Assembly: GCF_006716565.1 (NCBI RefSeq) | Contig: NZ_VFPG01000001.1 | Location: 2,046,001-2,110,000 of the forward strand | Reading direction: 5' to 3' | Length of the DNA stretch: 64,000 nt | DNA from: Nocardia bhagyanarayanae | GTDB taxonomy: Bacteria > Actinomycetota > Actinomycetes > Mycobacteriales > Mycobacteriaceae | Part shown: one piece after another, positions 37,315-50,730 of the stretch | Numbering within the stretch: position 1 is the stretch's first letter | How the letters are laid out: each line of letters begins with the position of its first letter | The notes under the pieces: model-generated | The model's input: the letters and a program-made list of their open reading frames with translations, nothing else | Databases searched by the model: none | What the model was told of the DNA's origin: nothing | Translations under genes and position numbers: made by a program

Positions 37315-38381
37315 GCACCGCCACCGCTGACGCCGACAGCACCGACTCCACCACCGACAACCGTCGCGAATACCGCAACAACCTCCTCATCCGAGACGGC
37401 CGCACCCGCTACCACTACGACGAGGCCGGTCGCCTCATCCGCAAGGAAACCACCCGCCTATCCCGCAAACCCGACATCTGGCACTACCGCTACAACGCCT
37501 TCGACCAGCTAACCGATGTCTATACGCCGGACCGGCAGTGGTGGCACTACACCTACGACGCCTTCGGTCGGCGTACCACCAAACAACACCTCACCGGCGA
37601 GGGCGCCGTCCTCGAGCGCACTGATTACGCGTGGGACGACACTCAGCTCATAGAACGAAGCGCCCCCCAGGGCGTGATGCGCTGGAGTTACCAGCCCAAC
37701 ACCTATACACCCATCACCCAAACCACCGACCAAGCCGCCATCGACCGCGAATTCTTCGCCGTTATAACAGATCTCGTCGGCACCCCAACCGAACTCATCG
37801 ACCCTTACTCCACGCATACCGCTGGATCTGCCCACATAGATCTGTGGGGTAGAACAACTTGGAGCGGTCGGACAAGCACCCCCCTGCGATTCCCTGGCCA
37901 ACTTCATGACGCCGAGACCGGTCTTCACTACAACCTTTACCGGACCTACGATCCAGCTAGTGGGCGGTATATTTGCGGTGACCCACTCGGACTGGAACCG
38001 GCACCGAATCCACACTCGTATACGCACAATCCGCTCATCTGGCTCGATCCACTGGGACTTGCACCGGAATCCTGCCGGCAGCCCACATACGGAAATGGCG
38101 GGCACATTGACAATATTTCGCCGGAAGACGCCCGAAGAATTCAAAACGCAGCTAACGCCCGCGGAGTGACGATTCACGTGGTCGGAAGTCGAGCAACAGG
38201 CTCTGCCGGGCCATTTTCAGATTGGGACTATGTTATCGAGGGAATCAACTCCAGGATGCGCAGTCGAATACAAAGTTCCTTACCGCAGGGTGCGGTGGAA
38301 CTGGGTCATGGGAGACGAATCGACATCTTCCGGCGGAATTTGGTGGAAGGCATGCCCTATGTGTCGTTCCACCCGAACTGA
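37206..38381 (+). CDS. RHS toxin C-terminal part with nucleotidyltransferase-like toxic tip
   Basis: This frame continues the RHS protein after the break: QQYTYDALSNITNSR, WHYRYNAFDQLTDVYTPD and the core end signature GRYICGDPLGLEPAPN followed by LIWLDPLGLAPE. The last 100 residues are the variable tip. They contain VVGSRATGSAGPFSDWDYVI and RRIDIFRR, the GS-x(n)-DxD pattern of minimal nucleotidyltransferase-fold domains, so the toxin may nucleotidylate a host target. Its DNA is visibly less GC-rich than the repeats, as expected for an exchanged tip. It could be translated from GTG 37206 as an orphan or by frameshift from the upstream part. Confidence 0.8.
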   Translation: MVRRGKTSVPQQYTYDALSNITNSRLPETSSTTPNLSTATADADSTDSTTDNRREYRNNLLIRDGRTRYHYDEAGRLIRKETTRLSRKPDIWHYRYNAFDQLTDVYTPDRQWWHYTYDAFGRRTTKQHLTGEGAVLERTDYAWDDTQLIERSAPQGVMRWSYQPNTYTPITQTTDQAAIDREFFAVITDLVGTPTELIDPYSTHTAGSAHIDLWGRTTWSGRTSTPLRFPGQLHDAETGLHYNLYRTYDPASGRYICGDPLGLEPAPNPHSYTHNPLIWLDPLGLAPESCRQPTYGNGGHIDNISPEDARRIQNAANARGVTIHVVGSRATGSAGPFSDWDYVIEGINSRMRSRIQSSLPQGAVELGHGRRIDIFRRNLVEGMPYVSFHPN

Positions 38382-38391
38382 AGGGCTCTAA

Positions 38392-38673
38392 ATGAAATTC
38401 GATGCTGAGATAATCGGTACCGAAGGTGACTATTCACTCGTAGCGTGGGAAGGTAGGAGGTTTCCTGGACTGCTCGTGCAGGGTGACAGTTTGAGCATTC
38501 TTCTCGATACTCTCGAAGAGTCGATCTCTGAATTGCGGGAAGGTAATGTCGACGATGGAATGTTCGCTTTGGAGGCGGCGCTCGCCGCTGTTCGTTCGAT
38601 GATTGGGTCTTACGAAAGGCTGATGGCGTATTCCGGACACCCGCTGCCATATGCGCCGAGAGGCAACGGCTAG
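38392..38673 (+). CDS. Presumed immunity protein for the RHS tip (DUF6959-like)
   Basis: The 93-residue acidic protein starts 10 bases after the toxin stop. Text such as YSLVAWEGRRFPGLLVQGDS and the acidic LDTLEESISELREGNVDDG resembles small proteins of the DUF6959 group that occur after toxin tips. It is single-domain, cytoplasmic and lower in GC than the genome average. Position directly after a polymorphic toxin makes immunity the best inference. The family name is from memory and is less certain than the role. Confidence 0.65.
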   Translation: MKFDAEIIGTEGDYSLVAWEGRRFPGLLVQGDSLSILLDTLEESISELREGNVDDGMFALEAALAAVRSMIGSYERLMAYSGHPLPYAPRGNG

Positions 38674-38987
38674 GAGGACGAGTCGATAGCTGAAGCAGGT
38701 CTTGTACGCACGAAGGTATGAGGCGGAAAGGCGTGGAGCAAGGTATACGCAGGATGAGTTGCGCTGCATCGCATCCAACGGCTCGCTCTTCTGTCGGGCC
38801 GCAGCGGGGAAGATGTCCCGATCTGTAACAAGAACACGCTGCGTCGGTATTGCAATGAACACTCCAACGCTCGACGACTCGGTGTCTTGCTTCTGTACCG
38901 AACCGAACATTTCCGGACTGTATAGTCGGGTTCTGTAGTTCGAAACCAATCATTGGAGCACGTGAAATGGATTCGAGTCGGGGATGA
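38674..38987. other. AT-richer stretch without a supported gene after the immunity gene
   Basis: The stretch has lower GC than the rest of the window and no frame with a ribosome site and coding-like third positions. One forward frame (38702-38938) is open but resembles nothing I know. It probably consists of debris from former toxin/immunity cassettes, given the fragment that follows at 38988. Confidence 0.35.
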
Positions 38988-39104
38988 CTACTGCGACGCT
39001 GGATCCCAGCTGAGGATCTCGAGGAACTCAATCGTCACATCGTCGGCGAGATCGAGCTGGCTCAGAGGTTTCCGGCTGATGCCCGTGTTCCGGGGGGACG
39101 GTGA
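38988..39104 (+). pseudogene. Orphan C-terminal fragment of another polymorphic-toxin tip
   Basis: After an in-frame TGA the 38 codons read LLRRWIPAEDLEELNRHIVG and EIELAQRFP to a stop at 39104. The WIPAEDLEELNxxIVG pattern is the kind of C-terminus seen on RHS-linked toxins, where the tip ends in an IPAE-DL-E-N-IVG-I motif. Only the end of the domain remains, so it looks like a displaced tip left by recombination. There is no start codon of its own. Confidence 0.45.
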
Positions 39105-39513
39105 ATCGCGATCGGTGCCTTGAACCAACCACGTCGTTGTTCCTGGGGCGCGGCACTTCCTCGGATCGCCGCTGGGCCGGACCTTGCTCGCGTGGGGATC
39201 GAGTCGCCGCGATCGACAACGTGAGTACCGGCCGTATCGCCGCTGACGAAAGCTGAGTTGGCTTCGGACGGCCTTCGTTTCCTTCGCGGCTAGCTCGTCC
39301 TGTGGGTCGGATGGATGTGGCGGCCGACTGCTCCGGTGGCGCACCACGAAGGCCGCGAGCCGACGACGTGTGCCGACTCTTCACCCGAGGCGTGACGCCG
39401 GATCGGTCACGGTATGGGTTCCAAACGGCGATGGTATGGATACATGGCTTCGATTCCCCTTGTAATTGGGAACTCTTGGGCAACACGCTGAGCGGAGGAA
39501 CGAGGAGGCCGAT
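39105..39513. other. Gene-free stretch between toxin debris and a small gene
   Basis: No coding frame is convincing on either strand; the long reverse frame across 39028-39714 has poor codon character. I see no repeat or strong hairpin. The end holds GAGGAGG, the ribosome site of the gene at 39514. Confidence 0.35.
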
Positions 39514-39720
39514 ATGAGTGAGTTCGCCTGCGGCGATTGCTGGCGCCGCGAGAACCTGACCTTCGCGCAGCGACTGGACCCGGCCTACATCCGGCGCGGG
39601 AATGGGCAACTGTGCGAGGAGCATCGGGCCAGCCGGAACGAATCCCGGGCACTGGCGCCGCTCGCGAAGCGCTCGTGTCGATCGAGATCCATATCCGGTA
39701 AAGAGAACAGCCACCTGTAG
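39514..39720 (+). CDS. Small Cys-containing protein (68 aa), unknown
   Basis: A strong GAGGAGG lies six bases before the ATG. The peptide has FACGDCWRRENL near the start and LCEEHR in the middle, so a C-x2-C with a later C-x3-H could bind a metal as a tiny zinc-ribbon-like protein. The C-terminus is Arg/Ser-rich. It stands alone downstream of the toxin debris. I do not recognise a family, and it may be part of a former cassette. The good ribosome site is the main support. Confidence 0.45.
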   Translation: MSEFACGDCWRRENLTFAQRLDPAYIRRGNGQLCEEHRASRNESRALAPLAKRSCRSRSISGKENSHL

Positions 39721-39897
39721 CTACACCGAGGGCCGGACCGACTGTCGAGGCAAATGCCCGGCAGGTCGTTACGAGGCCGAACCGGAAGCTGTGCGATCCC
39801 GCAGAAGTAGCACAGAGCCTTGGTTCGAAGCGACGAGTCACCGCCTCGGCAACCTGCGCCTCCTCACCCTCGGTGCGCCGGTACTTGCGCACCATCG

Positions 39898-39930
39898 AGC
39901 GACCCCGCGCCCGAAAGGCGCGGGGTCGCT
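39898..39930. terminator. Strong hairpin terminator
   Basis: A perfect 14-base-pair stem (AGCGACCCCGCGCC with its complement) closes a CGAAA loop. It lies 21 bases after the lipase stop on the reverse strand and downstream of the small forward gene, so it may serve both. There is no long U-tract, as often in actinobacteria. Confidence 0.75.
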
Positions 39931-39951
39931 GTGTATTTCAGGAAACCTTGC

Positions 39952-41085
39952 TCAGGAGAACAGATTTCGCACGAACGGTAGGGAATCGGGCAGAGAGGCG
40001 TTGACGGCTCCGCTGTGGTCCTGGTCGTACGTGCGCAACGTGACCGGCTGCCCGTTGGCCTGCAACGTCGCCGCGAAGGCGAGAGTCGCGGGGGTGATGA
40101 CGTCGGTGTCGCGCAGGCCCTGGCCGAGGAAGAGGGGGCGGTCGTAGCCGGATTCGGGGAGACCCATGGTCCGGGTGAGGATGCCGCGCAGGTCGGGGAT
40201 CTGGGCGAGGGGGCGGGCGAAGAGGTCGCCGAGGACGACATCGGCCGCGCCGAGCTCGTCGCCGAATTCGTTGATGCACACGGTGCGGGCGCGAACGAGC
40301 CACTCGCGGCCGGCGTCGGTCAGGTAGGACTCGATGTCGAGTTCGGGGTAGGTGGTGCGCAGGCCGTTGAGGATGTACAGCACGTAGGCGGTGCTGTGCG
40401 GATTCAGTTCCAGCGGCGGCATGCCGGGGCCGAGCGGCAGCAGGATGTCCTCGATGTAGGCGGGCACGCCGGTGCCGACCGCGCCGCGGTAGTCCAGATC
40501 GGGCCCGCCGAACTCGGTGGCGTAGCGGGCGGTGAAGACGGCCGCGCCGCCGCCCTGCGACTGGCCGACCACCACCCACTTCTTCGCCAGCGCGGGATAC
40601 CGGCTGGTCGCGGCCTTCACCGCGTCCACGACGTTGTGTGCCTCGACGGCGCCGTTCAAGTAGGGGTGCTCGCCGGGTGTGCCGAGGCCCGCGTAGTCGG
40701 CGGCGACCACGGCGTACCCCTGCTTCAGCCAGGTGCCCAGGTAGGCCCAGTCGCGTTCGCGGGCGCCGGGGCCCGCGATGCTGTAGGCGCAGTCGTCGCC
40801 GAGGCCGACGGTGCCGTGCGCCCAGGCGATCACCGGCCACCCGCCTTCGGGCGGCGTTCCGGCCGGGAAGTAGACGGCGGCGCTCGTGGTGGTCGGCGCG
40901 TTGCCCGCGGTGGTGGAGCGGTACAGGAGGCGGGCCGCGTCGGCGGCGTCCGGCGGTGTCGCGACCGCGGCGAGCGGCGCGACGGATTCGACCGTCCCCG
41001 TCGCGAGGTCCGCGTTCGCGGTGGACGGGTACAGCAGGGCGGTCGCGCAGGCCGTGACGGCCGCGGCGAGGCATAGCTTCCGCAT
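39952..41085 (-). CDS. Secreted lipase (secretory lipase family)
   Basis: I choose the ATG at 41085 because AGGAG precedes it and it opens a clean Sec signal (MRKLCLAAAVTACATALLYP then ANA). The 377-residue protein is an alpha/beta hydrolase of the secretory-lipase type found in Nocardia and Candida. Visible features are the WAHGTVG oxyanion region, nucleophile elbow VVGQSQGGGA (Ser), LGQGLRDTDVI (Asp) and DQDHSGAV (His). It probably hydrolyses host or environmental acylglycerols outside the cell. It is monocistronic, with the hairpin at 39898-39930 downstream. Confidence 0.9.
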   Translation of the reverse strand: MRKLCLAAAVTACATALLYPSTANADLATGTVESVAPLAAVATPPDAADAARLLYRSTTAGNAPTTTSAAVYFPAGTPPEGGWPVIAWAHGTVGLGDDCAYSIAGPGARERDWAYLGTWLKQGYAVVAADYAGLGTPGEHPYLNGAVEAHNVVDAVKAATSRYPALAKKWVVVGQSQGGGAAVFTARYATEFGGPDLDYRGAVGTGVPAYIEDILLPLGPGMPPLELNPHSTAYVLYILNGLRTTYPELDIESYLTDAGREWLVRARTVCINEFGDELGAADVVLGDLFARPLAQIPDLRGILTRTMGLPESGYDRPLFLGQGLRDTDVITPATLAFAATLQANGQPVTLRTYDQDHSGAVNASLPDSLPFVRNLFS

Positions 41086-41381
41086 GGGGCTCCTGTTCGA
41101 CGGGCGTGGTCGCGCCGAGTACTCGATGGGCGCGGGGCACTCCGCAAGAGTTGGACGCTTGCTCGAGATTGACTCTTCGCCCAAGTCTGCCCCATCCCCG
41201 CGGCGGAGGGTGTCGTGGCCCACACGGAGGGCACCCGCCTCAACCTGTGAATCGACTCACAGACCGATTCGTCCCGGCGTGTTGCCGCGGGGCCGAGTGG
41301 TGAACCCAAACAGTACGAGCGTTACGCTAAAAGCCCACGTCAGGGCTACCCGCGGGTAGGTTGAATGCTTGCAATTCGCCC

Positions 41382-41405
41382 GCAAATTTCGCAAAGTTGG
41401 CAAAC
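41382..41405. promoter_or_regulatory. Direct GCAAA repeats upstream of aceA, RamB-like control site
   Basis: GCAAA occurs at 41382, 41391 and 41400, an exact 9-base period, with a related GCAATT at 41371. The stretch includes GCAAAGTTGGCAAAC. In corynebacteria and mycobacteria the acetate regulator RamB binds TTTGC/GCAAA-containing sites upstream of the isocitrate lyase gene, so this is a plausible RamB site. It lies about 180 bases before the aceA start. The remaining intergenic DNA from 41086 to 41581 holds no gene I can support. Confidence 0.45.
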
Positions 41406-41581
41406 GGTAGGCGAAACCTAGCTGAGATTCACATTAGCAACAGGTAGACGGCTATTTCTCGGTGTGCCATCGTGTGGAAGTACACCCCAAGGGCCTAGCA
41501 ACCCTGCAAATCGCCGCTCCAGCAGATCGAGTGAAATCTCGGCAAGCGCGGCACCGACCGACCAAAGAAGTGGAGTCAGAG

Positions 41582-42871
41582 ATGTCGACCACCGGCACCC
41601 CGAAGACCGCTGCGGAAATCCAGCAGGATTGGGACACCAACCCGCGCTGGAAGGGCATCACCCGTAACTACACCGCGGAGCAGGTGGTGAAGCTCCAGGG
41701 CACCGTCGTCGAGGAGCACACGCTCGCTCGCCGCGGCTCGGAGATCCTGTGGGATCTCGTGAACAACGAGGACTACATCAACTCCCTCGGCGCCCTCACC
41801 GGCAACCAGGCCGTGCAGCAGGTCCGCGCCGGCCTGAAGGCCATCTACCTGTCGGGTTGGCAGGTCGCCGGTGACGCGAACCTCTCCGGCCACACCTACC
41901 CGGACCAGTCGCTGTACCCGGCCAACTCGGTGCCGCAGGTCGTGCGTCGCATCAACAACGCGCTGCTGCGCGCCGACGAGATCGCCAAGGTCGAGGGTGA
42001 CACCTCGGTCGCCAACTGGCTGGCTCCGATCGTCGCCGACGGTGAGGCCGGCTTCGGTGGCGCGCTCAACGTCTACGAGCTGCAGAAGGCCATGATCGCG
42101 GCCGGTGTCGCCGGTTCGCACTGGGAGGACCAGCTGGCCTCCGAGAAGAAGTGTGGCCACCTGGGCGGCAAGGTGCTGATCCCCACCCAGCAGCACATCC
42201 GCACCCTGACCTCCGCGCGTCTGGCCGCCGACGTCGCCGGCGTGCCGACCGTGGTCATCGCCCGCACCGACGCCGAGGCCGCCACCCTCATCACCTCCGA
42301 TGTCGACGAGCGCGACCGCGAGTTCCTGGACGGCACCCGCACCGCCGAGGGCTTCTTCGGTGTGAAGAACGGCATCGAGCCCTGCATCGCGCGTGCCAAG
42401 GCCTACGCCCCGTACTCCGACCTCATCTGGATGGAGACCGGTGTGCCGGACCTCGAGGTCGCCCGCAAGTTCGCCGAGGCCGTCCGTGGCGAGTTCCCGG
42501 ACCAGCTGCTGGCCTACAACTGCTCGCCGTCCTTCAACTGGAAGGCGCACCTGGACGACGCGACCATCGCGAAGTTCCAGCGTGAACTCGGCGCGATGGG
42601 CTTCAAGTTCCAGTTCATCACCCTGGCCGGCTTCCACTCGCTGAACTACGGCATGTTCGACCTGGCGCACGGCTACGCCCGCGAAGGCATGACCGCGTTC
42701 GTCGACCTGCAGGAGCGCGAGTTCAAGGCTGCCGCCGAGCGTGGCTTCACCGCCATCAAGCACCAGCGCGAGGTCGGTGCCGGCTACTTCGACACCATCG
42801 CCACCACCGTGGACCCGAACACCTCCACCGCGGCGCTCAAGGGCTCCACCGAAGAGGGTCAGTTCCACTGA
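41582..42871 (+). CDS. aceA: Isocitrate lyase
   Basis: The 429-residue protein is the standard length for the short actinobacterial (ICL1) form. It carries the catalytic loop [12 protein letters not shown] (active-site Cys), metal-binding [10 protein letters not shown], the [20 protein letters not shown] stretch and [14 protein letters not shown]. It splits isocitrate into glyoxylate and succinate in the glyoxylate shunt, needed on acetate and fatty acids. A GGAG lies before the ATG. The high C/G third-position bias suggests strong expression. Upstream are GCAAA repeats; downstream a hairpin terminator at 42929-42962. Confidence 0.97.
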
Positions 42872-42928
42872 GTTGACCAGCCCGCAGTGATGCAGGCCCG
42901 CAATCCTCTACTCGAGTAGGGGTGTACC

Positions 42929-42962
42929 GCCCTCCCCGCCGAACAGCCCCGGCGGGGAGGGC
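42929..42962 (+). terminator. Hairpin terminator after aceA
   Basis: GCCCTCCCCGCCG pairs perfectly over 13 bases with CGGCGGGGAGGGC across an eight-base loop, 57 bases after the aceA stop. No T-run follows, so the next gene could receive some read-through. Confidence 0.7.
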
Positions 42963-43026
42963 ATCCCTATAACTTGGACCAGAACCCCAAGCCATCCCAG
43001 CCACACCAGACCAGCAGGAGCGGGAC

Positions 43027-43914
43027 GTGAGCAGCGAGAAGATTCAGCGTGTCGGCGTCATCGGCGCCGGACAGATGGGTGCCGGAATCGCGGAGGTGTG
43101 CGCCCGGGCGCACGTCGACGTGCTCGTCTACGAACAGACCCGGGAACTAGCGGCCGCCGGCCGCGCCCGCATCCTGCGCTCGCTGGATCGCGGCGTGAGC
43201 AGCGGCAAGATCACCGAGCGCGAGCGTGAGCAGGCCGCGTGGCGGCTGCGCTTCACCTCCGACCTCGGCGACTTCGCCGACCGTCAGCTGGTCGTCGAGG
43301 CCGTGCTGGAGAACGAAGAGGTCAAGACCTCGATCTTCGCCGAGCTCGACAAGGTCGTCACCGACCCGAACGCGGTGCTGGCCTCCAACACCTCCTCCAT
43401 CCCGATCATGAAGATCGCCGTCGCGACCGCGAACCCCGAGCGCGTCGTCGGCATGCACTTCTTCAACCCCGTGCCGGTGCTGCCGCTGGTCGAGCTGGTC
43501 ACCACCCTCAAGACCAGCGAGGCGGTCTCCCAGCGCGCCGAGGCCTTCGCCGGTGACGTGCTCGGCAAGCAGGTCGTCCGCTCGGCCGACCGCTCCGGCT
43601 TCGTCGTCAACGCGCTGCTGGTGCCGTACCTGCTGTCCTCCATCCGCATGGTCGAATCCGGTTTCGCGACAAAGGAAGACGTCGACAAGGCCATGGTGCT
43701 CGGCTGCGCCCACCCGATGGGCCCGCTGGCGCTGACCGACCTCGTCGGTCTGGACACCGTCAAGTCGATCGCCGACTCGATGTACGCGGAATTCAAGGAG
43801 CCCCTCTACTCCGCGCCTCCGCTGCTGATGCGCATGGTCGAGGCGGGCCTGCTCGGCAAGAAGACCGGCGCGGGCTTCTACCAGTACAACTCCCCCGCCT
43901 CTCCGCGTAATTAG
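43027..43914 (+). CDS. 3-hydroxybutyryl-CoA dehydrogenase
   Basis: The 295-residue protein starts at a GTG preceded by AGGAG. It has the NAD-binding motif VGVIGAGQMGAGIAEVCA, LASNTSSIPIMKIA, the catalytic-His motif GMHFFNPVPVLPLVELV, and the C-terminal domain motifs GFVVNALLVPYL and GCAHPMGPLALTDLVGLD. It oxidises 3-hydroxybutyryl-CoA (FadB2/PaaH/Hbd group) using NAD or NADP. Its place after isocitrate lyase is a conserved pairing in Nocardia-like genomes and links short-chain acyl-CoA oxidation with the glyoxylate shunt. Confidence 0.92.
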   Translation: MSSEKIQRVGVIGAGQMGAGIAEVCARAHVDVLVYEQTRELAAAGRARILRSLDRGVSSGKITEREREQAAWRLRFTSDLGDFADRQLVVEAVLENEEVKTSIFAELDKVVTDPNAVLASNTSSIPIMKIAVATANPERVVGMHFFNPVPVLPLVELVTTLKTSEAVSQRAEAFAGDVLGKQVVRSADRSGFVVNALLVPYLLSSIRMVESGFATKEDVDKAMVLGCAHPMGPLALTDLVGLDTVKSIADSMYAEFKEPLYSAPPLLMRMVEAGLLGKKTGAGFYQYNSPASPRN

Positions 43915-44327
43915 CGGGCGGCGCGAAGCCGTCGGCGTCGGGGCGCCCGTGCCGGCGGTTGGGTGCCGAACCGATTTCGGTCGTACCCGGCGAGTTACCC
44001 GGCCCTTGCGAGATCGGTTTCGCGTCGGGCGAAGGAGTTCGCCGGGTCTTCGGCCTGGCACTCTGCAGCGTCGATCTTCGTTTCCTCAGGTGCACGTCGC
44101 CCCGCAGGTGGCGGCGTCCACCATCACCGGGCATAAGCTGCGATAGGTCTGGGTGGGTCGGCGGAGCCGCTGCTCATCGCCTCGCAGTGATACCAGTAGT
44201 AACGGCATAAGCTGCAAGGACGCCGAGTCGTTGACGCGGCTCGGCGGGACACCGAAAGCGCAGCGCTGCGCGTCCTCCGCCGTGCGGAGCGGATATCGCG
44301 CAGGTGATCGAAAGGGAGTTCCCGCGC
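43915..44327 (+). promoter_or_regulatory. Long leader region before the MetE homologue with two GCATAAGCTGC copies
   Basis: The 413-base gap holds no gene. GCATAAGCTGC occurs at 44131-44141 and again at 44205-44215, 74 bases apart, and could be two -10-type elements or operator sites. CGCCGAG and CTCGGCG (44222-44247) can form a hairpin close to the gene, and AAAGGGAG at 44311-44318 is its ribosome site. I looked for cobalamin and SAM riboswitch signatures and saw none that I would defend. Confidence 0.35.
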
Positions 44328-46631
44328 ATGGTCAACGTCACGGATGGCTACGGGTCGAGCATTCTGGGTTATCCCAGGATCGGGCCGCACCGGGAACTCA
44401 AGCGGGCACTGGAGTCCTACTGGCGCGGTTCGCTCTCGCGCGCGGAACTGCTCGCGGTCGGCCGCGACATCCAGGAGCAGCAGTTCAGCGAACTGGCGGC
44501 CACCGGACTCACCCAGGTGCCCGGCAACACCTTCTCCTTCTACGACCACGTCCTCGACAACGCGCTGATGTTCGGCGCGGTGCCGAAGCGGTTCCAGCCC
44601 TACCGGGACGTCATGGAGCCTCTGGACTTCTACTTCCTGATGGCGCGCGGCCGGCCCGATCTGCCGCCGCTGGAGCTGGTGCGCTACATCGACACCAACT
44701 ACCACTACCGCCAGCCTGAGCTGGACGCCGAGACCGAGTTCTCGCTACATCCCGAGGCCCTGCTCGACGAATTCGACCGTGCCAAGGCGCAAGGCATCGA
44801 GCTGCGGCCGGTCATGCTCGGTCCGCTCTCGCTGCTGCTGCTCTCCAAGGCGGGGCAGGTGCCCGGCGAGCCCGAGTTCGACACGCTCACCCTCTTGGAC
44901 AAGCTGCTCCCGGTCTACGAAGAGCTGTTCGAGATCCTCGCCAAGCGCGGCGCGACCTGCGTCCAGCTGGACGAGCCGATGTTCACCGCCGAGCGCAGCG
45001 ACGCCGAGCTGGCCGCGTTCGAGCGCGCCTACCAGCGGCTGTCCCACGCGCCGCTGCGGCCGCGGATGCTTGTCACCGGTCAGTACGGCGACTTCGGTCC
45101 GGCGCTGACCATTCTCGCCGCGTCCAATGTCGAGGCCATCGGTCTGGACTTGGCCAGCCACCGAATCCGCCCCGACGATCTCGCCGAGGTGCCCGGCATC
45201 CGCCGCAAGCGGCTGTACGCGGGCGTGATCAGCGGCCGCAACGTGTGGCGCGCGGACCGCTACGTGACGCTGGAATACCTCAACGAGCTGGCCAAGGTGT
45301 GCCCGGATCTGGTCGTCTCCACCGGAAGCACGCTGCTGCACGTGCCCTACGACCTGCTCGTCGAATACGACATCGAGGGCAACGTCGCCGATCGCCTGGC
45401 CTTCGCGAAACAGAAGGTGGGCGAGGTGGTTTCGCTCGCCAAGGCGCTCACCGAGGGTCCGTCCGACAAGTGGCGCAAGCGGCCGACGGAGGTCCACTTC
45501 AAGCAGAAGCACGCTGTGCGCCAACGGGTTTACGCGATCACGCCGCAGATGCGCGAGCGCGAACCCTACGCGCAGCGCCGAATCGCCCAGCAGGCCAAGC
45601 TGAATCTGCCGCCGGTGCCGACCACCACGCTCGGCTCGTTCCCGCAGACCGACCGAATCCGCCAGGCCCGTTACGAATTGGGCGAGGGCAGGTTGTCCTA
45701 CGAGGAGTACCGCAAGCGGATCGAGGCCGAGATCGAGGCGACGATCCGGTTGCAGGAGGACATCGGCCTGGATGTGCTCGTGCACGGCGAGCACGAGCGC
45801 AACGACATGATCCAGTACTTCGCCGAGCTGCTGGACGGCTTCGCGACCACCCACTTCGGCTGGGTGCAGGTCTACGGGTCTCGTTGCGTGCGACCGCCGA
45901 TCATCTACGGCGACGTCTCGCGTCCCGCGCCGATGTCGGTGGACTGGATCACCTACGCCCAGTCGCTCACCGACAAGCCGGTCAAGGGCATGGTCACCGG
46001 CCCGGTCACCATGATCGCGCGGTCGTTCGTGCGCCAGGACCAGCCGCTGCACGAGACGGCCGACCAGGTCGCACTGGCGATCCGTGACGAGGTGGTGGAC
46101 CTGGAGCGCGCGGGCATCTCGATCATCCAGGTGGACGAGCCCGCGATCCGAGAAATGTTGCCGCTGCGCGACATCGGGCGCGCTGAGTACCTGCGCTGGG
46201 CGGTCGGCGCGTTCCGGCTGGCGACCTCGGGTGTTCGGCCGGAGACTCAGATCCACACGCACATCGGTTATTCCGGCCGCGCCGAAGTGGTGGAAGCCAT
46301 CGAGCAGCTCGACGCCGACGTCACCGCGATCGTCGCGACCCGCTCCATCGAGTGGGTGCTCAAGGTGCTCAAGGAGGACTGCGCCTCGGGTCACGGATTG
46401 AGCCATGGGGTGGGTCCCGGTGTGTACGAAAGCCGTTCCGCCCGTATCCCGGACATCGATGAACTCGACGAGTTGCTGACGGCCGCGGCCGAGGCCGTGA
46501 CGCCGGAACGGCTGTGGGCCAACCCGGATGGTGGGCTCAAGACGCGGCACTACTGGCAGTTGGAGCCCTCGTTGCGCAATATGGTCGCGGCTGCCCGGCG
46601 TATCCGGAGGCGCATTCCGGCGGCCGAATAG
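44328..46631 (+). CDS. metE: MetE-family cobalamin-independent methionine synthase homologue lacking zinc ligands
   Basis: This 767-residue protein is full length for MetE, with both barrels: N-terminal ILGYPRIGPHRELKRALESY and C-terminal VLVHGEHERNDMIQYFAELL, VQVYGSRCVRPPIIYGDVSR, WITYAQSLTDKPVKGMVTGP and IQVDEPAIREMLPLR. Canonical MetE binds zinc through His641, Cys643, Glu665 and Cys726 (E. coli numbers). Here HTHxCYS is HTHIGYS, the IETSRS Glu is Val (IVATRS), and NPDCGLKT is NPDGGLKT. Three of four ligands are gone. Methyl transfer to homocysteine by the usual mechanism is therefore doubtful. It may be a paralogue with another role. ATG 44328 follows AAAGGGAG at 44311-44318. Confidence 0.85.
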   Translation: MVNVTDGYGSSILGYPRIGPHRELKRALESYWRGSLSRAELLAVGRDIQEQQFSELAATGLTQVPGNTFSFYDHVLDNALMFGAVPKRFQPYRDVMEPLDFYFLMARGRPDLPPLELVRYIDTNYHYRQPELDAETEFSLHPEALLDEFDRAKAQGIELRPVMLGPLSLLLLSKAGQVPGEPEFDTLTLLDKLLPVYEELFEILAKRGATCVQLDEPMFTAERSDAELAAFERAYQRLSHAPLRPRMLVTGQYGDFGPALTILAASNVEAIGLDLASHRIRPDDLAEVPGIRRKRLYAGVISGRNVWRADRYVTLEYLNELAKVCPDLVVSTGSTLLHVPYDLLVEYDIEGNVADRLAFAKQKVGEVVSLAKALTEGPSDKWRKRPTEVHFKQKHAVRQRVYAITPQMREREPYAQRRIAQQAKLNLPPVPTTTLGSFPQTDRIRQARYELGEGRLSYEEYRKRIEAEIEATIRLQEDIGLDVLVHGEHERNDMIQYFAELLDGFATTHFGWVQVYGSRCVRPPIIYGDVSRPAPMSVDWITYAQSLTDKPVKGMVTGPVTMIARSFVRQDQPLHETADQVALAIRDEVVDLERAGISIIQVDEPAIREMLPLRDIGRAEYLRWAVGAFRLATSGVRPETQIHTHIGYSGRAEVVEAIEQLDADVTAIVATRSIEWVLKVLKEDCASGHGLSHGVGPGVYESRSARIPDIDELDELLTAAAEAVTPERLWANPDGGLKTRHYWQLEPSLRNMVAAARRIRRRIPAAE

Positions 46632-46643
46632 TTCGACGACACG

Positions 46644-46688
46644 GGCCGCCTCTCCGTCGCGAAACGGAGAGGCGGCCTTTGTTTTCGT
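46644..46688 (+). terminator. Rho-independent terminator after metE
   Basis: GGCCGCCTCTCCGT pairs over 14 bases with ACGGAGAGGCGGCC across a CGCGAA loop and is followed by TTTGTTTTCGTGTT. It begins 12 bases after the stop and is the best classical terminator in the window. Confidence 0.9.
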
Positions 46689-46709
46689 GTTGTCGGGTGT
46701 GCTGCTGCG

Positions 46710-48185
46710 GTATCTTGGCGGCCCGGGGGCCTAGCGGATCGGCGGATCGTGTGGTCCTGCGGCGTAGCGAATCGGCGCGTCGGCGTGGGCCCGGCGTCTC
46801 GGCGGCTCAGCGGCGTAGCGAATCGGTGCTCCGCAGCCCGGTGGCCCAGTGGATTGGCGGCCTAGCGGCTCGGCGGCCCGGCGGTTCAGCGATTCGGCGT
46901 GGCCCTGCGGATGCGCTGGCTGACCGCCGACGGAGTGACCCAGCGTGGCGATTCGGCGGCCCGGCGTTCCGGCGGCCTAGCGAATCGGCGTGGTCCGGCA
47001 GTCCCGGCAGCTCGGCGGCGTGGCGAATCAGTGCCCCAGCGGCTCGGCGGCTGAGCGAATCAGCGGCCTAGCGGCTCGGTGGCTCGGTGGTCTAGCGAAT
47101 CGGCGCATCGGCGTGGCTCGAGGTCTCGGCGGCTCAGCGGCTCATCGTCCCAGCGTCCCAGCGTCCCAGCGTCCCAGCATCCCGGCGGCCTGGCAGCCCG
47201 GTAGCCCAGTGGCTTGGCGGCCTAGCGGCTCGGTGGGTCGGTGGCCCGGCGGGTCTAGCGAATCGGCGTGGCCCTGCGGCGTGGCGATTCGGCGGCCCGG
47301 TTTTCCGGCGGCCTAGCGAATCGGCGTGGTCCGGCAGTCCCGGCAGCTCGGCGGCGTGGCGAATCAGTGCCCCAGCGGCTCGGCGGCTGAGCGAATCAGC
47401 GGCCTAGCGGCTCGGTGGCTCGGTGGTCTAGCGAATCGGCGCATCGGCGTGGCTCGAGGTCTCGGCGGCTCAGCGGCTCATCGTCCCAGCGTCCCAGCGT
47501 CCCAGCGTCCCAGCGTCCCAGCGTCCCAGCGTCCCAGCGTCCCGGCATCCCAGCGGCCCGGCGGCCCAGCGGCTTGGCGGCCTAGCGTCTCGGTGGCCTC
47601 GGTGATCGGTGGCTCGGCGTGGGTCCGCGGCGTGGCGAATCGGCGGCCCGGCGTTCCGGCGGTATAGCGCATCGGCGTGGCCGGCGGCCCCGTCGTCTCG
47701 GCGGTCCGGCGGCCCAGCGCCTCGGTGGCTCGGCGTCTAGCGGATCGGTGTGGCCGCCCGGCGTGGCAAATCGGTGGCCCCGCAGCCCGGCAGCCCGGCA
47801 GCCCGGCGGCCTAGCGGATCGGCGGTCGGTGTGGTCCTGCGGCGTAGCGAATCGGCGCATCGGCGTGGGCCCGGCGTCTCGGCGGCTCAGCGGCGTAGCG
47901 AATCGGTGCCCCGCACCCCGGCGGCCCAGCGGCTTGGCGGCCTAGCGTCCCGGTGGCTCGGCGGCGTAGCGACTCGGCGTGGCCTGCGGCCCGGCGTCTC
48001 GATGACCCAGTGTCTCGGCCGCTCGGCGGTCTAGCGAATCGGTGTCATGGCGGCCCAGCGTGCAGCTCAGCGGACTGGCGTATCGGCGGCGGTGTTCCGG
48101 CGGCCTAGGGAATCGGTGTGGCCCGGCGGCCTCGGCAGCTTGGTGGCGTAGCGAATCGGTGGCTTAGCGGCTCGGTGGCTCGCAA
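46710..48185. repeat. 1.5-kb degenerate octamer array, consensus CYYRGCGG
   Basis: The whole stretch can be cut into eight-base units such as CCTAGCGG, CTCGGCGG, CCCGGCGG, CCCAGTGG, ATTGGCGG and TTCAGCGA, roughly 180 in a row. Near 47146 and again near 47485 the units become exact copies of GTCCCAGC (about four and about eight). CTAG, normally rare in bacterial DNA, is frequent here. The array starts right after the metE terminator and ends before the operator at 48218. Because eight is not a multiple of three and the unit lacks stops in several frames, long open frames appear on both strands. I regard them as non-coding. Confidence 0.85.
46944..47516 (+). repeat. 336-bp direct duplication inside the octamer array
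   Basis: The segment from about 46944 to 47180 recurs at 47280 to 47516, a 336-base offset, with only about two differences at the start and then a different number of GTCCCAGC units. This is recent segmental duplication plus unit-number change, as by slipped replication or unequal exchange. A shorter near-copy of about 110 bases links 46732-46840 with about 47812-47920. Confidence 0.8.
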
Positions 48186-48217
48186 AATCGTGCGGGCTGG
48201 AAGACATGGTATTTCGG

Positions 48218-48233
48218 TACGGTACGTACCGTA
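48218..48233. promoter_or_regulatory. Perfect 16-bp palindrome, probable TetR operator
   Basis: TACGGTACGTACCGTA is a perfect palindrome ending 10 bases before the ATG at 48244. A -10-like TATCAT (48232-48237) overlaps it, so transcription would begin about at the start codon and the mRNA would be leaderless. The TetR gene that overlaps the downstream VOC gene is the obvious candidate to bind it and autoregulate. Confidence 0.6.
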
Positions 48234-48243
48234 TCATTTGTGG

Positions 48244-48669
48244 ATGGCTGTGGATGAACGAGCGTGGCCCGATTCGCTACGGGTCGCGCAGGTCCGGATC
48301 GCTCGGCCGACGGATCGGCTCGACGAGGTGGTGCGGTTCTATGTCGAGGGGGTCGGGCTGCGGGAGCTGTACCGATTCGAGAACCACGCGGGGTACGACG
48401 GCGTGATGCTCGGTCTGCCCGGCGCGGACTATCACCTGGAGTTCACCTCGCATGTGGACGGAAGTCCTGGAGACGCACCGAGTTCCGAGAATCTACTGGT
48501 CCTCTACTTCGAGGGTGAAGCGCAGATGTACGACGCGGCGCAGCGGCTCGGCGAATACGGCGTCGAGCCGGTGTCGCTCGAGAATCCGTACTGGGCGGCC
48601 AACGGCGACTTGGGCTTTCCCGATCCGGACGGCTGGCTGGTCGTGTTGATGCCGCGGCCGGTGTTCTGA
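48244..48669 (+). CDS. VOC-superfamily (glyoxalase/dioxygenase-fold) protein
   Basis: The 141-residue protein is one VOC module pair: RVAQVRIARPTDRLDEVVRF, FENHAGYDGVMLGLPGADYH, LEFTSHVDGS and FPDPDGWLVVLMPR. Metal-ligand positions (His in YHLEF; late Glu is replaced by VLMP) are incomplete, so the reaction is uncertain. Such proteins often handle small toxic molecules or bind drugs. I choose ATG 48244, since the upstream open frame lies in the octamer array. Its stop overlaps the TetR start (TGATG), and a palindromic operator covers its promoter, suggesting an inducible detoxification pair. Confidence 0.8.
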   Translation: MAVDERAWPDSLRVAQVRIARPTDRLDEVVRFYVEGVGLRELYRFENHAGYDGVMLGLPGADYHLEFTSHVDGSPGDAPSSENLLVLYFEGEAQMYDAAQRLGEYGVEPVSLENPYWAANGDLGFPDPDGWLVVLMPRPVF

Positions 48670-49235
48670 TGGCGGGGCGGGCGCGCGACAACCGGATCGA
48701 CGCCGCGGTCTTGACGGCCGCGCGAGAACTGCTGGACGAGAACGGATATGCCGAGCTGACGATCGGCGGTGTGGCGACGCGGTCGGGAATTCACCGACCC
48801 GCGATCTATCGGCGTTGGCCGTCCAAGCGGCATCTGGTCGTGGCGGTGGTCGCCGATCTGCTCGGCCTGCGGCCCACTGCGAACACGGGGGATCTGCGGG
48901 CCGACCTGACCGCGGCGATGCGGGATTTGGTTGCGGCCCTGCGCGATACATCGCTCGATCGCGTGCTGCCCGCGCTGCTCGCGGACCTGGCCAATGACCC
49001 AGAACTGCGCGAGCACTTCCTTGCCGTCGTCTTCGAGCCGCGGCGGCGGACCACCGAGACCGCGCTGCGCGCGGCGATCGAACGCGGCGAGGTGCGCCCC
49101 GAGATCGACATGGACTTCGTGCTGGATGCCGTCGCGGCGCCCATCTACTTCCGCGCGCTGTTCGGTCATCTGCCGCTGGACGACGAACTCGCCGAGTCTT
49201 CGGTGGACGCGGTTCTGGGTCTGATCGTCCGGTGA
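48669..49235 (+). CDS. TetR-family regulator of the VOC gene
   Basis: The 188-residue protein has a TetR helix-turn-helix (AAVLTAARELLDENGYAELT, IGGVATRSGIHRPAIYRRWP) and a C-terminal domain of the TetR_C type with ALLADLANDPELREHFLAVV and ERGEVRPEIDMDFVLDAVAA. It is translationally coupled to the VOC gene. It most likely represses its own operon through the palindrome at 48218. The inducer is unknown. Confidence 0.87.
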   Translation: MAGRARDNRIDAAVLTAARELLDENGYAELTIGGVATRSGIHRPAIYRRWPSKRHLVVAVVADLLGLRPTANTGDLRADLTAAMRDLVAALRDTSLDRVLPALLADLANDPELREHFLAVVFEPRRRTTETALRAAIERGEVRPEIDMDFVLDAVAAPIYFRALFGHLPLDDELAESSVDAVLGLIVR

Positions 49236-49269
49236 CCTGGTCGCTCCGGCGCGATGTCCCGCGAGGCGA

Positions 49270-49347
49270 TCAGGAGGCGACCGCGATGGTGCGCCGTTTG
49301 GTGACCTGTTCGATCGGCAGCCGTTCGGCAAGTTCTTCCAGCGGCCG
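49270..49347 (-). other. In-frame protein-like extension after the TGA of the AI-2E transporter gene
   Basis: Immediately after the transporter's TGA (49348-49350) the same frame continues for 25 codons (LEELAERLPIEQVTKRRTIA then VAS) to a second TGA at 49270. It has coding-like third positions and a plausible amphipathic tail. The first stop has the context TGAC, which is the leakiest for UGA. It may be a nonsense mutation, read-through or the end of a longer ancestral gene. Confidence 0.4.
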
Positions 49348-50730
49348 TCAGCGCTGGGCGCGGGTGAGCCGAAGCATGAGCTCGCGCATTCTTTTTCGGC
49401 CGTTCGGCTTCGTCGGTTCGGGAGCCGGCGCTTCCACGTCGGTTTCGACCTCGTAGCGGCGGATATAGGCGCCCGCGAAGGCTTGCACGGTGGCGGTGAC
49501 GGGGATGGCGAGCAACGCGCCCGTCGGGCCGAGTAGCGCGGCGCCCGCGATCACCGCGCCGAAGGCGACTGCGGGATGCATGTCGAGGGTGGTGGCGGTG
49601 ATGCGCGGTTGCAGGACGTAGTTCTCGAATTGCTGGTACAGGACGATGAATCCGAGGATCCACAGCCCGTCACCGGGGCCGCCGTTCACCAAGGCGACGA
49701 TCACCGGAAGGGCGCCGGCCAGGTAGGTGCCGACGGTCGGAATGAACTGGGAGACAACGCCGACCCACAGCGCGAGCGCGAACGCCGATGGCACGTCGAG
49801 CACTCGCAGCACCACGTAGTGCGCAAGTGTCGAGCAGACGGCGAGCAGGCCGCGTGAGTAGATGTAGCCGCCGGTCTTCTCGACCGCGATGTCCCAGGCG
49901 CGCAGCACGTGTCGCTGACGGTGCGGTGGAAGCAGCGAGGACATGGCGTTGCGGAAGCGCGGACCGTCGGCGGCGAAGTAGTAGGTGAACAGCAGCACAC
50001 CGAGGATCTGGAAGAGCGCGCCGATCGCGGCCGTGCCGATGCCCCAGGCGTTTTCGGCCAAGCCGACCAGGTAGCCCTCGATCTGGTCGCTCCACTCCGT
50101 CGCGTATTTCTGGATGTCGGTGCCGGAGAGCTCGGTGTTGAACGTCTGGTTGACCCAGTCGACGACGCGGTCGGCGTACTCGGGCGCGTTCTGCACCAGC
50201 GTGGTCACCTGGTCGACGAGCAGCGAGCCGAGCGTCCACACGAACCCGCCGACTATCAGCAGCAGGCCGAGGAACACCACGCCCGTCGCGAGCCCGCGCC
50301 GCACGCCGCGCGCGGCGAGCCAGTTGACCGCGGGTTCGATGGCGAAGGCGAGGAACAGCGAGACCATCAGCACGGTGAGCAGACCCTGGAGTCGCTGCAA
50401 CACCCAGAATCCGAAGATCAGGCCCGCGATCGTCGCGGCGGCGAGCAGGAAGGCGCGCAGCAGCCAAGGGGGTGGACCGGCCGAGAGGTCGGTGAGCACT
50501 CCGCCGCGGTCCGATGCGGGCTTGCGCTTCTCCGAGCTCGGCGCTTCGGGTTTCGGTGCGGTCGGCGCTGGGTGATCCGCTGTCCCGGAACGCGGCTTCG
50601 TCGGTCCGGATGCTTCGGGGCGCGGCTCCTTCGGGCCGGGCACCCGGTTACGTGGTGCGCCGGACTCGCGCGAGGCGGAATCTCCCGCATCGGACTTCGG
50701 GTTGGTCGAGTCTTCGTCATCCGCGGACAC
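49348..50730 (-). CDS. AI-2E family transporter (PerM/TqsA-type membrane protein)
   Basis: From the GTG at 50730 the protein has 460 residues. A polar N-terminal tail of about 95 residues rich in Pro, Lys and Glu precedes the membrane part. That part has about seven or eight hydrophobic segments, including VLMVSLFLAFAIEPAVNWLA, GVVFLGLLLIVGGFVWTLG, GALFQILGVLLFTYYFAADG and VSQFIPTVGTYLAGALPVIV. The last is the family's conserved proline/glycine motif, followed by YQQFENYVLQPRI. The family exports small molecules or ions; AI-2 itself is proven for few members. Convergent with the TetR gene. An in-frame extension follows the TGA. Confidence 0.87.
   Translation of the reverse strand: MSADDEDSTNPKSDAGDSASRESGAPRNRVPGPKEPRPEASGPTKPRSGTADHPAPTAPKPEAPSSEKRKPASDRGGVLTDLSAGPPPWLLRAFLLAAATIAGLIFGFWVLQRLQGLLTVLMVSLFLAFAIEPAVNWLAARGVRRGLATGVVFLGLLLIVGGFVWTLGSLLVDQVTTLVQNAPEYADRVVDWVNQTFNTELSGTDIQKYATEWSDQIEGYLVGLAENAWGIGTAAIGALFQILGVLLFTYYFAADGPRFRNAMSSLLPPHRQRHVLRAWDIAVEKTGGYIYSRGLLAVCSTLAHYVVLRVLDVPSAFALALWVGVVSQFIPTVGTYLAGALPVIVALVNGGPGDGLWILGFIVLYQQFENYVLQPRITATTLDMHPAVAFGAVIAGAALLGPTGALLAIPVTATVQAFAGAYIRRYEVETDVEAPAPEPTKPNGRKRMRELMLRLTRAQR

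Follow-up and report, generated by a model that had tools for sequence, protein, structure and literature searches.

What does a MetE protein do once it has lost the residues that bind the zinc with which this family activates homocysteine? The question is raised by one gene in the stretch of Nocardia bhagyanarayanae DNA analysed here (64,000 nucleotides, positions 2,046,001 to 2,110,000 of contig NZ_VFPG01000001.1; hereafter the window). A preliminary description, made from the sequence alone, had presented its product as a full-length MetE homologue without its catalytic zinc site, and both parts of that statement hold. The gene, called ZL here (for zinc-less MetE paralogue), almost certainly represents, judging from its alignments, a clade-wide and strictly conserved MetE paralogue devoid of the zinc site. 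It is highly unlikely to encode a zinc-dependent methionine synthase; the protein very probably carries no catalytic zinc and very probably is not the methionine synthase of the cell.

44328..46631, + strand: ZL gene (zinc-less MetE paralogue), 767 amino acids from ATG, both MetE domains

The open reading frame (ORF) can begin at GTG 44304 or ATG 44328 and ends at 46631 on the + strand, with the purine-rich AAAGGGAG immediately 5' of the ATG. Pfam places Meth_synt_1 at residues 10-324 (E 2.1e-105) and Meth_synt_2 at 431-757, and the predicted structure aligns with MetE structures across about 7-763, as would be expected of the two-barrel architecture at full length. The best solved relatives are MetE enzymes (1u1h from Arabidopsis, 647 bits; 4ztx from Neurospora, 597 bits), and the closest protein among the matches listed is from Nocardia amikacinitolerans (98%). 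Sources that give a ZL protein a name call it methionine synthase (5-methyltetrahydropteroyltriglutamate--homocysteine (S-)methyltransferase), exactly as they name canonical MetE. The equivalog cut-off of NCBIfam TIGR01371 (929.95) separates the two, as the ZL proteins of the window (888.2) and of a second locus (L041, 845.8) fall below it and the canonical copy of the same genome (1078.5) lies above. No riboswitch was found upstream of ZL by Rfam (E <= 0.5, 38000-50000); the two matches in that interval, one over the 3' end of ZL, were to small RNA families below the gathering score and were taken as chance.

The residues at issue are known from solved MetE enzymes. In E. coli the zinc ligands are H641, C643, E665 and C726, and S433, E484 and D599 contact the substrate (Price et al., 2021, PMC7857596). 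In T. maritima the zinc is held by H618, C620, E642 and C704, homocysteine by Ser411, Glu462, Asp577, Ile409 and Met468, the pterin by Trp539 (stacking), Glu583 and Lys104, and the folate tail by Arg15, Lys18, Arg493 and Arg496, with His111, His672 in the DIHSP motif and Asp467 as candidate proton donors (Pejchal and Ludwig, PMC539065). We transferred the numbers of both enzymes to ZL by shared motifs. ZL has HTHIGYS where 1u1h has HTHMCYS and 4ztx HSHFCYS, IVATRS where these have IENSRS and IENSKS, and NPDGGLKT where both have NPDCGLKT. The positions concerned are as follows.

46260..46262, + strand: codon 645, His, the sole zinc ligand kept (alignment; 216/216 homologues)
46266..46268, + strand: codon 647, Gly for the zinc ligand Cys, E. 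coli Cys643 (alignment, homologues)
46332..46334, + strand: codon 669, Val for the zinc ligand Glu, E. coli Glu665 (alignment, homologues)
46530..46532, + strand: codon 735, Gly for the zinc ligand Cys, E. coli Cys726 (alignment, homologues)
46020..46022, + strand: codon 565, Arg for the pterin-stacking Trp, T. maritima Trp539 (alignment; role from PMC539065)
46428..46442, + strand: codons 701-705, ESRSA for DIHSP, the motif that supplies a candidate proton-donor His of MetE (alignment; PMC539065)
44709..44714, + strand: codons 128-129, Arg-Gln where canonical MetE has Leu-Val, beside NYHY (clade-specific: 1.00 of 101 ZL against 1.00 of 20 canonical sequences)

The preliminary description gave the codons as GGT and GGG; GGT is right for both 647 and 735, whereas GGG encodes the following glycine (736), and Val669 is GTC. 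Its view that the substitutions are no frame artefact is borne out by the homologues, which comprise the best 120 of 7969 matches to a first search and 120 listed for a divergent ZL query, together 216 distinct proteins. The names in the second search include Dietzia, Rhodococcus (opacus, wratislaviensis, hoagii, ruber), Skermania, Antrihabitans, Hoyosella, Rhodococcoides, Speluncibacter and Nocardia. None of the 216 listed retains any of the three lost ligands. Position 647 is Gly in 102, Thr in 46, Ser in 29, Ala in 16, Pro in 14 and Asn in 9; position 669 is Val in 213 and Ile in 3; and position 735 is Gly throughout. Among the best 120 of 7969 the corresponding counts are Gly 84, Pro 14, Ala 11, Ser 6 and Asn 5 at 647, Val 119 and Ile 1 at 669, and Gly 120 at 735.

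The change extends beyond what had been described, since it also affects the DIHSP loop and the Trp that stacks on the pterin. Position 565 is Arg in 210 of the 216 proteins, Phe in 4 and Leu in 2, and position 703, the His of DIHSP, is Arg in 213 and His in 3. At the counterparts of T. maritima His111 and Lys104, position 126 is His in 184 of 216 and position 119 is Arg in 174, Lys in 19, Ala in 15 and another residue in 8. The residues that hold the amino and carboxyl groups of homocysteine (Ser437, Glu488 and Asp603, for T. maritima Ser411, Glu462 and Asp577) are present in 216/216, as are Asp493, Met494, His643, His645 and the folate-tail residues Arg519 and Arg522; Arg22 and Lys25, also of the folate tail, are found in 213 each (3 gaps). 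New residues have become nearly invariant in turn, namely Arg128, Glu701 and Trp676 (216 each) and Arg703 (213). When 101 ZL sequences were set against 20 canonical ones, 23 columns were at least 95% fixed to differing residues, including 128-129, 669, 676, 701-703, 705, 735 and 744, and positions 647 and 565 were fixed in canonical MetE and altered but variable in ZL. On these counts the zinc site, the stacking on the pterin and one of the candidate proton donors disappeared jointly, and both the amino-acid end and the folate-tail groove were retained. Twenty further loci yielded a few exceptions: Glu at 647 (L175), Phe at 735 (L174), Gly at 565 (L179) and a retained His703 (L183).

Equivalent ligands might have been supplied by shifted residues. 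A search by conservation only, without coordinates, among His, Cys, Asp and Glu residues conserved in ZL and not in canonical MetE found none convincing. The sole new histidine of the C-terminal barrel, His741, occurs in 99% of the 101 sequences and in 186/216 of the wider set; the ZL-conserved Cys211 falls in the N-terminal barrel; and conserved acidic residues have newly appeared within what was the DIHSP loop (Glu701) and beyond that loop (Asp709, 711 and 714). ZL may thus have a metal site of another kind. Sparing of sulfur was rejected as a general cause of the cysteine loss, because the 216 proteins hold 1 to 7 Cys, with a mode of 4.

The paralogue is widespread. ZL is present in 35/35 other genomes of the genus (in part in one that is 78% complete), and in a sample of one GTDB family it was matched in 159/301 genomes and 24/31 genera, by the criterion of E <= 1e-250 to a Hoyosella protein (identity at least 61% among the matches listed, with canonical copies near 50%). 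Named holders are Nocardia, Rhodococcus, Williamsia, Antrihabitans, Skermania, Aldersonia, Hoyosella and Lolliginicoccus (80 of 134 confirmed stretches), and Dietzia. In a class-wide sample a degenerate DNA pattern for NPDGGLKT, which finds only the exact motif, hit 4/394 genomes, all of the window's genus; a phylum sample was poor in MetE (6/80 genomes). In a quick tree of 51 rows (50 different), rooted at the midpoint and with some long branches, ZL lies among the canonical MetE of actinobacteria and forms one side of a branch with a support of 100 (SH-like approximate likelihood ratio test, SH-aLRT) and a stem of 0.89 changes per site; it is placed near the MetE of Pseudonocardiaceae, with surrounding supports of 82-96.

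Of the 334 plasmid records with a match, a single one exceeds 60% identity (91.9%), the 2.66 Mb 'plasmid 2' of Nocardia farcinica NCTC11134 (L170, NZ_LN868939.1), which carries ZL; a contig of equal length in another genome (G020, L054) has ZL with the two upstream genes discussed below, and the 'plasmid' is probably a piece of chromosome so labelled. The six plasmid rows taken into the tree, the only ones inspected, have canonical zinc sites. All 11 phage records with a match are below 60%, and several short phage-labelled records (H32, H34-H39) encode MetE at 40-44% identity and resemble fragments of host DNA.

After a burst of change, ZL is held under strong purifying selection. The ratio of nonsynonymous to synonymous substitution rates (dN/dS, Nei-Gojobori) is 0.066-0.251 in 33/36 Nocardia ZL pairs, those above 84% identity; the 0.135-0.305 of ten canonical pairs is a weak comparison, because these are less alike (72-84%). 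The 35 other Nocardia copies have no internal stop and, apart from one cut by a contig end (G015), frames of at least 773 amino acids. Loss of catalytic residues, taken by itself, could point to a decaying pseudogene or a sequencing artefact, but the same losses shared by all 216 homologues, intact frames and a dN/dS well below 1 leave that idea next to no probability, and it was rejected. The preliminary conclusion that either another mode of thiol activation or another reaction is implied thus stands, with the loss fixed across the clade under purifying selection.

ZL does not seem to stand in for MetE. The preliminary suggestion to look for a second, canonical metE or a metH was productive, as the genome of the window (7.56 Mb; the window lies in contig 1, C1) contains both. 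The canonical MetE, at C1:3497866-3500112 on the - strand, is 51% identical to ZL and has the motifs HTHLCYS, SIEAARS, NPDCGLKT and AWSF; a MetH domain is also present. A third MetE-like frame, of 370 amino acids and with a Meth_synt_2 match only, lies at C1:3381994-3382989 of this genome (L003, G000), near frames that by eye resemble a tRNA-thiouridylase and a DNA ligase. In 24 ZL genomes searched with canonical MetE (E <= 1e-100), 12 gave a ZL match only and 12 had a canonical copy as well, and a MetH domain was found in 29/29 ZL genomes tested. The idea that canonical MetE, too, lies beside the isocitrate lyase gene (aceA) was rejected: comparison of aceA, fadB2 and ramB with 14 canonical loci gave one match, to aceA at 29% identity (L051), with flanks of 3-5 kb for eleven of the loci and flanks too short for L062, L001 and L065.

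The surroundings of ZL suggest where it may act. Two genes precede it on the same strand, the names aceA and fadB2, like ramB below, following mycobacterial usage.

41462..42871, + strand: aceA, isocitrate lyase, first of the trio; ORF as listed, true start probably internal (NCBIfam)
43027..43914, + strand: fadB2, 3-hydroxybutyryl-CoA dehydrogenase, second of the trio (NCBIfam product name)
44130..44215, + strand: region upstream of ZL with two copies of GGCATAAGCTGC (44130-44141, 44204-44215), a sequence repeat and the core of the CATAAG[CG]TGCA element

The order aceA-fadB2-ZL on one strand is found in 93/98 loci, which are all those with enough upstream sequence (93/93); the remaining five lie on contigs that begin 0.6-1.4 kb before ZL, and four of these still show fadB2. 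The trio recurs in 20/20 further loci (18 genus codes), with some places counted twice in the 93 and the 20. A ramB-like gene, recognised by eye, lies upstream in 39/98 loci (29 divergent, 10 not) and in 13 of the 20. Between fadB2 and the first aligned codon of ZL there are as few as 6 bp and as many as about 600 bp, with the long gaps in Nocardia (a few negative values are spurious); by eye, 12-13 bp separate the fadB2 stop from the ZL ATG in L130 and L190. The sequence CATAAG[CG]TGCA occurs 74-147 bp before the conserved GSSILGYPRIG codons in 21/51 Nocardia loci, which are not independent since several strains represent one species; the same strand has no other copy across these loci, about 0.83 Mb in all, and 30/51 are without it. 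It is perhaps a promoter element.

Relatives without ZL have aceA-fadB2 in 10/10 loci and a ramB-like gene in 9/10, with no ZL in those ten, which come from the best-matching of 14 ZL-less genomes searched (a fadB2 match was present in 12). At one of the ten loci (L205) an alcohol dehydrogenase-like frame follows fadB2; 13/20 ZL loci have a member of the same family (c4) in their flank, and in six it comes directly after ZL, so that L205 appears to have lost ZL. Downstream of ZL in the window, 46632-48180 is filled with dense short GC-rich tandem repeats with periods of 8, 16, 24 and 32, and the same 32-bp array is present twice, at 47003-47084 and at 47339-47420; ORFs listed for this stretch are probably not genuine.

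Expression evidence may come from Rhodococcus qingshengii IGTS8, in which a protein named MetE (IGTS8_peg5907; 2 cysteines, 7 methionines) stood 190- to 273-fold above its sulfate level when dibenzothiophene was the sulfur source and in one condition belonged to the top ten of the sulfur proteome, with MshA encoded by peg5948 (PMC8557817). Each of the 20 canonical sequences compared has at least 3 Cys, and 25 ZL copies from the genus code of Rhodococcus sp. WS1 (P0153) have 1 to 3. This strain we take to belong to the IGTS8 group: in five genomes with a ZL at least 99% identical to its own, ZL has 2 Cys and 8 Met, and two close ZL proteins (L220, L221; 96%) have exactly 2 and 7. Counted from an assumed start, the canonical MetE contains 4 Cys and 8 Met in five of those genomes (L240-L244). 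In 8/8 genomes looked at, mshA lies 35-38 kb from ZL, which fits 41 genes, and the canonical copy is at least 0.65 Mb from ZL, on another contig or absent. Since both the cysteine content and the distance to mshA fit ZL and the canonical copy lies elsewhere, peg5907 is very probably ZL, to judge from these relatives.

In that study dibenzothiophene was added from a 100 mM stock in ethanol at 0.5% v/v, and the main text of the report, which calls the sulfur source the sole variable, speaks of ethanol only for this stock and a gel step and does not mention isocitrate lyase (PMC8557817). By our arithmetic about 86 mM ethanol was carried in. A gene behind aceA might respond to ethanol, which may therefore confound the induction. 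The same culture uniquely contained a metabolite annotated as 1-aminocyclopropane-1-carboxylate, for which the genome has no known synthase (PMC8557817). Passages of two further papers on IGTS8 added nothing on the peg5907 protein.

Taken together, these observations make a different job for ZL very probable, because the grips on zinc and pterin are mostly lost yet the protein is tightly conserved and, in the loci that could be checked, sits behind isocitrate lyase. A different reaction is favoured over a different thiol activation, because the pterin Trp and the candidate proton-donor His are gone too and because half of the 24 ZL genomes show no canonical MetE, all 29 have a MetH domain and ZL is part of the isocitrate lyase locus. 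Its most likely place is in the metabolism for which isocitrate lyase is needed (ethanol, acetate, fatty acids). The explanation we prefer, to which an even chance is given, is that ZL is a neofunctionalised MetE paralogue, probably a metal-free enzyme of the isocitrate-lyase locus that keeps the amino-acid site and the cationic groove. The old homocysteine site (Ser437, Glu488, Asp603) would still hold an alpha-amino acid by its amino and carboxyl groups, and the old folate-tail groove (Arg22, Lys25, Arg519, Arg522) an anionic group. The ligand losses, the conservation, the purifying selection, the gene order and the fold of the model are direct results; that ZL lacks zinc, has no methionine synthase activity and is the peg5907 protein are inferences. 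That the kept and the new residues line one pocket is offered as a hypothesis only, as are the substrate and the reaction. More tentatively, and at somewhat less than an even chance, ZL would be a widespread actinobacterial enzyme whose substrates are an alpha-amino acid and an anionic partner and whose reaction, new and metal-free, would link C2 and fatty-acid metabolism with that of amino acids or of one-carbon units; in that event the IGTS8 'MetE' would be this enzyme, and the conclusion of the IGTS8 paper on methionine synthesis would need revision.

Several points weigh against this explanation. ZL passes the cut-off (541) of a second NCBIfam model with the same product name, NF003556, at 954.7 for the window and 905.5 for L041. 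Position 609, equivalent to the pterin residue Glu583 of T. maritima, is Glu in 209 of the 216 homologues (Thr 6, Asp 1), and since the folate-tail residues are kept as well, ZL could still bind folate. Shared descent explains part of the fixed gene order, because relatives without ZL keep aceA-fadB2 too, and co-transcription may not be general, because gaps in many Nocardia reach hundreds of bases and some loci have a promoter-like element of their own. Finally, the authors of the IGTS8 study read the induction as a sulfur response (PMC8557817).

Other explanations draw on the same evidence. ZL could be a MetE that no longer catalyses anything and survives as a sensor, scaffold or regulator; it might act on isocitrate lyase, say, or on genes under the RamB-like regulator, by binding an amino acid or a folate polyglutamate in the old sites. 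The joint loss of the zinc ligands, Trp565 and His703 with retention of the binding residues would suit such a role, as would the fixed order with aceA; but binding alone creates no obvious need for near-invariant Arg128, Glu701, Arg703 and Trp676, and an abundance among the top ten would be high for a sensor if peg5907 is ZL, so that we regard this as doubtful. Less likely again is a zinc-independent methionine synthase with another way of activating the thiol, used when sulfate is scarce. The conserved amino-acid site and folate-tail residues are consistent with it, as is the strong rise of an IGTS8 protein whose cysteine content and map position fit ZL. It is at odds, however, with the additional loss of the Trp that stacks on the pterin and of the His that may donate a proton, with the MetH domain in every ZL genome tested and with the ethanol in the dibenzothiophene stock; nor is ZL generally poor in sulfur, with 4 Cys and 14 Met in the window against 4 and 7 in the canonical MetE of the same genome. 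A sulfur-starvation enzyme with a new reaction, such as one on a sulfonium compound (S-methylmethionine, S-adenosylmethionine), would join the induction of peg5907 to the unexplained metabolite of that culture and make use of the amino-acid site; that metabolite, annotated as 1-aminocyclopropane-1-carboxylate, which has the formula of homoserine lactone as well, would then be a lead. The ethanol confound applies here too, a coincidence in one culture establishes no causal link, and gene order ties ZL to aceA, which together make this improbable.

If the preferred explanation, a neofunctionalised enzyme of the isocitrate-lyase locus, is correct, a protein of Nocardia, Rhodococcus, Dietzia, Williamsia and their kin is misnamed as methionine synthase, and metabolic models and proteomic conclusions that rely on the name are wrong. 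A full-length two-barrel zinc enzyme would have become one that probably has no metal but retains its amino-acid site, and an unknown step would be added to the isocitrate lyase locus. Among titles and abstract openings in the open-licence literature, no report was recognised that describes a clade of full-length MetE without zinc or links one to aceA.

Known systems each share part of this picture. The mycobacterial icl1-fadB2 locus (icl1 Rv0467, fadB2 Rv0468) has the aceA-fadB2 order of the ZL loci, whereas ZL itself was not found in the ten loci of relatives that lack it. MetE, solved from T. maritima, A. thaliana, C. albicans, N. crassa and S. mutans, has the same two domains, Meth_synt_1 and Meth_synt_2; ZL differs in the loss of the zinc-binding Cys, Glu and Cys and of the pterin Trp, in the replacement of DIHSP by ESRSA and of Leu-Val by Arg-Gln at 128-129, in a score under the TIGR01371 cut-off and in its place in the aceA locus. 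The core methionine synthases MesA-MesD share Meth_synt_2 with ZL but lack the N-terminal barrel that ZL has (PMC7857596). Loss of zinc ligands has precedents in that group, namely the zinc-less MesB-like proteins of Chloroflexales (FSHG, YCDQ, YREQ) and the MesC of MSBL-1, with Gly for Glu665 (Price et al., 2021, PMC7857596). The ZL pattern differs from that of the MesB-like proteins, with His at the first position, Gly, Thr, Ser, Ala, Pro or Asn at the second, Val or Ile at the third and Gly at the fourth. Uroporphyrinogen decarboxylase (UroD), a single barrel with a porphyrin substrate and no close sequence relation to ZL, is a precedent only for metal-free chemistry on the barrel fold that ZL has.

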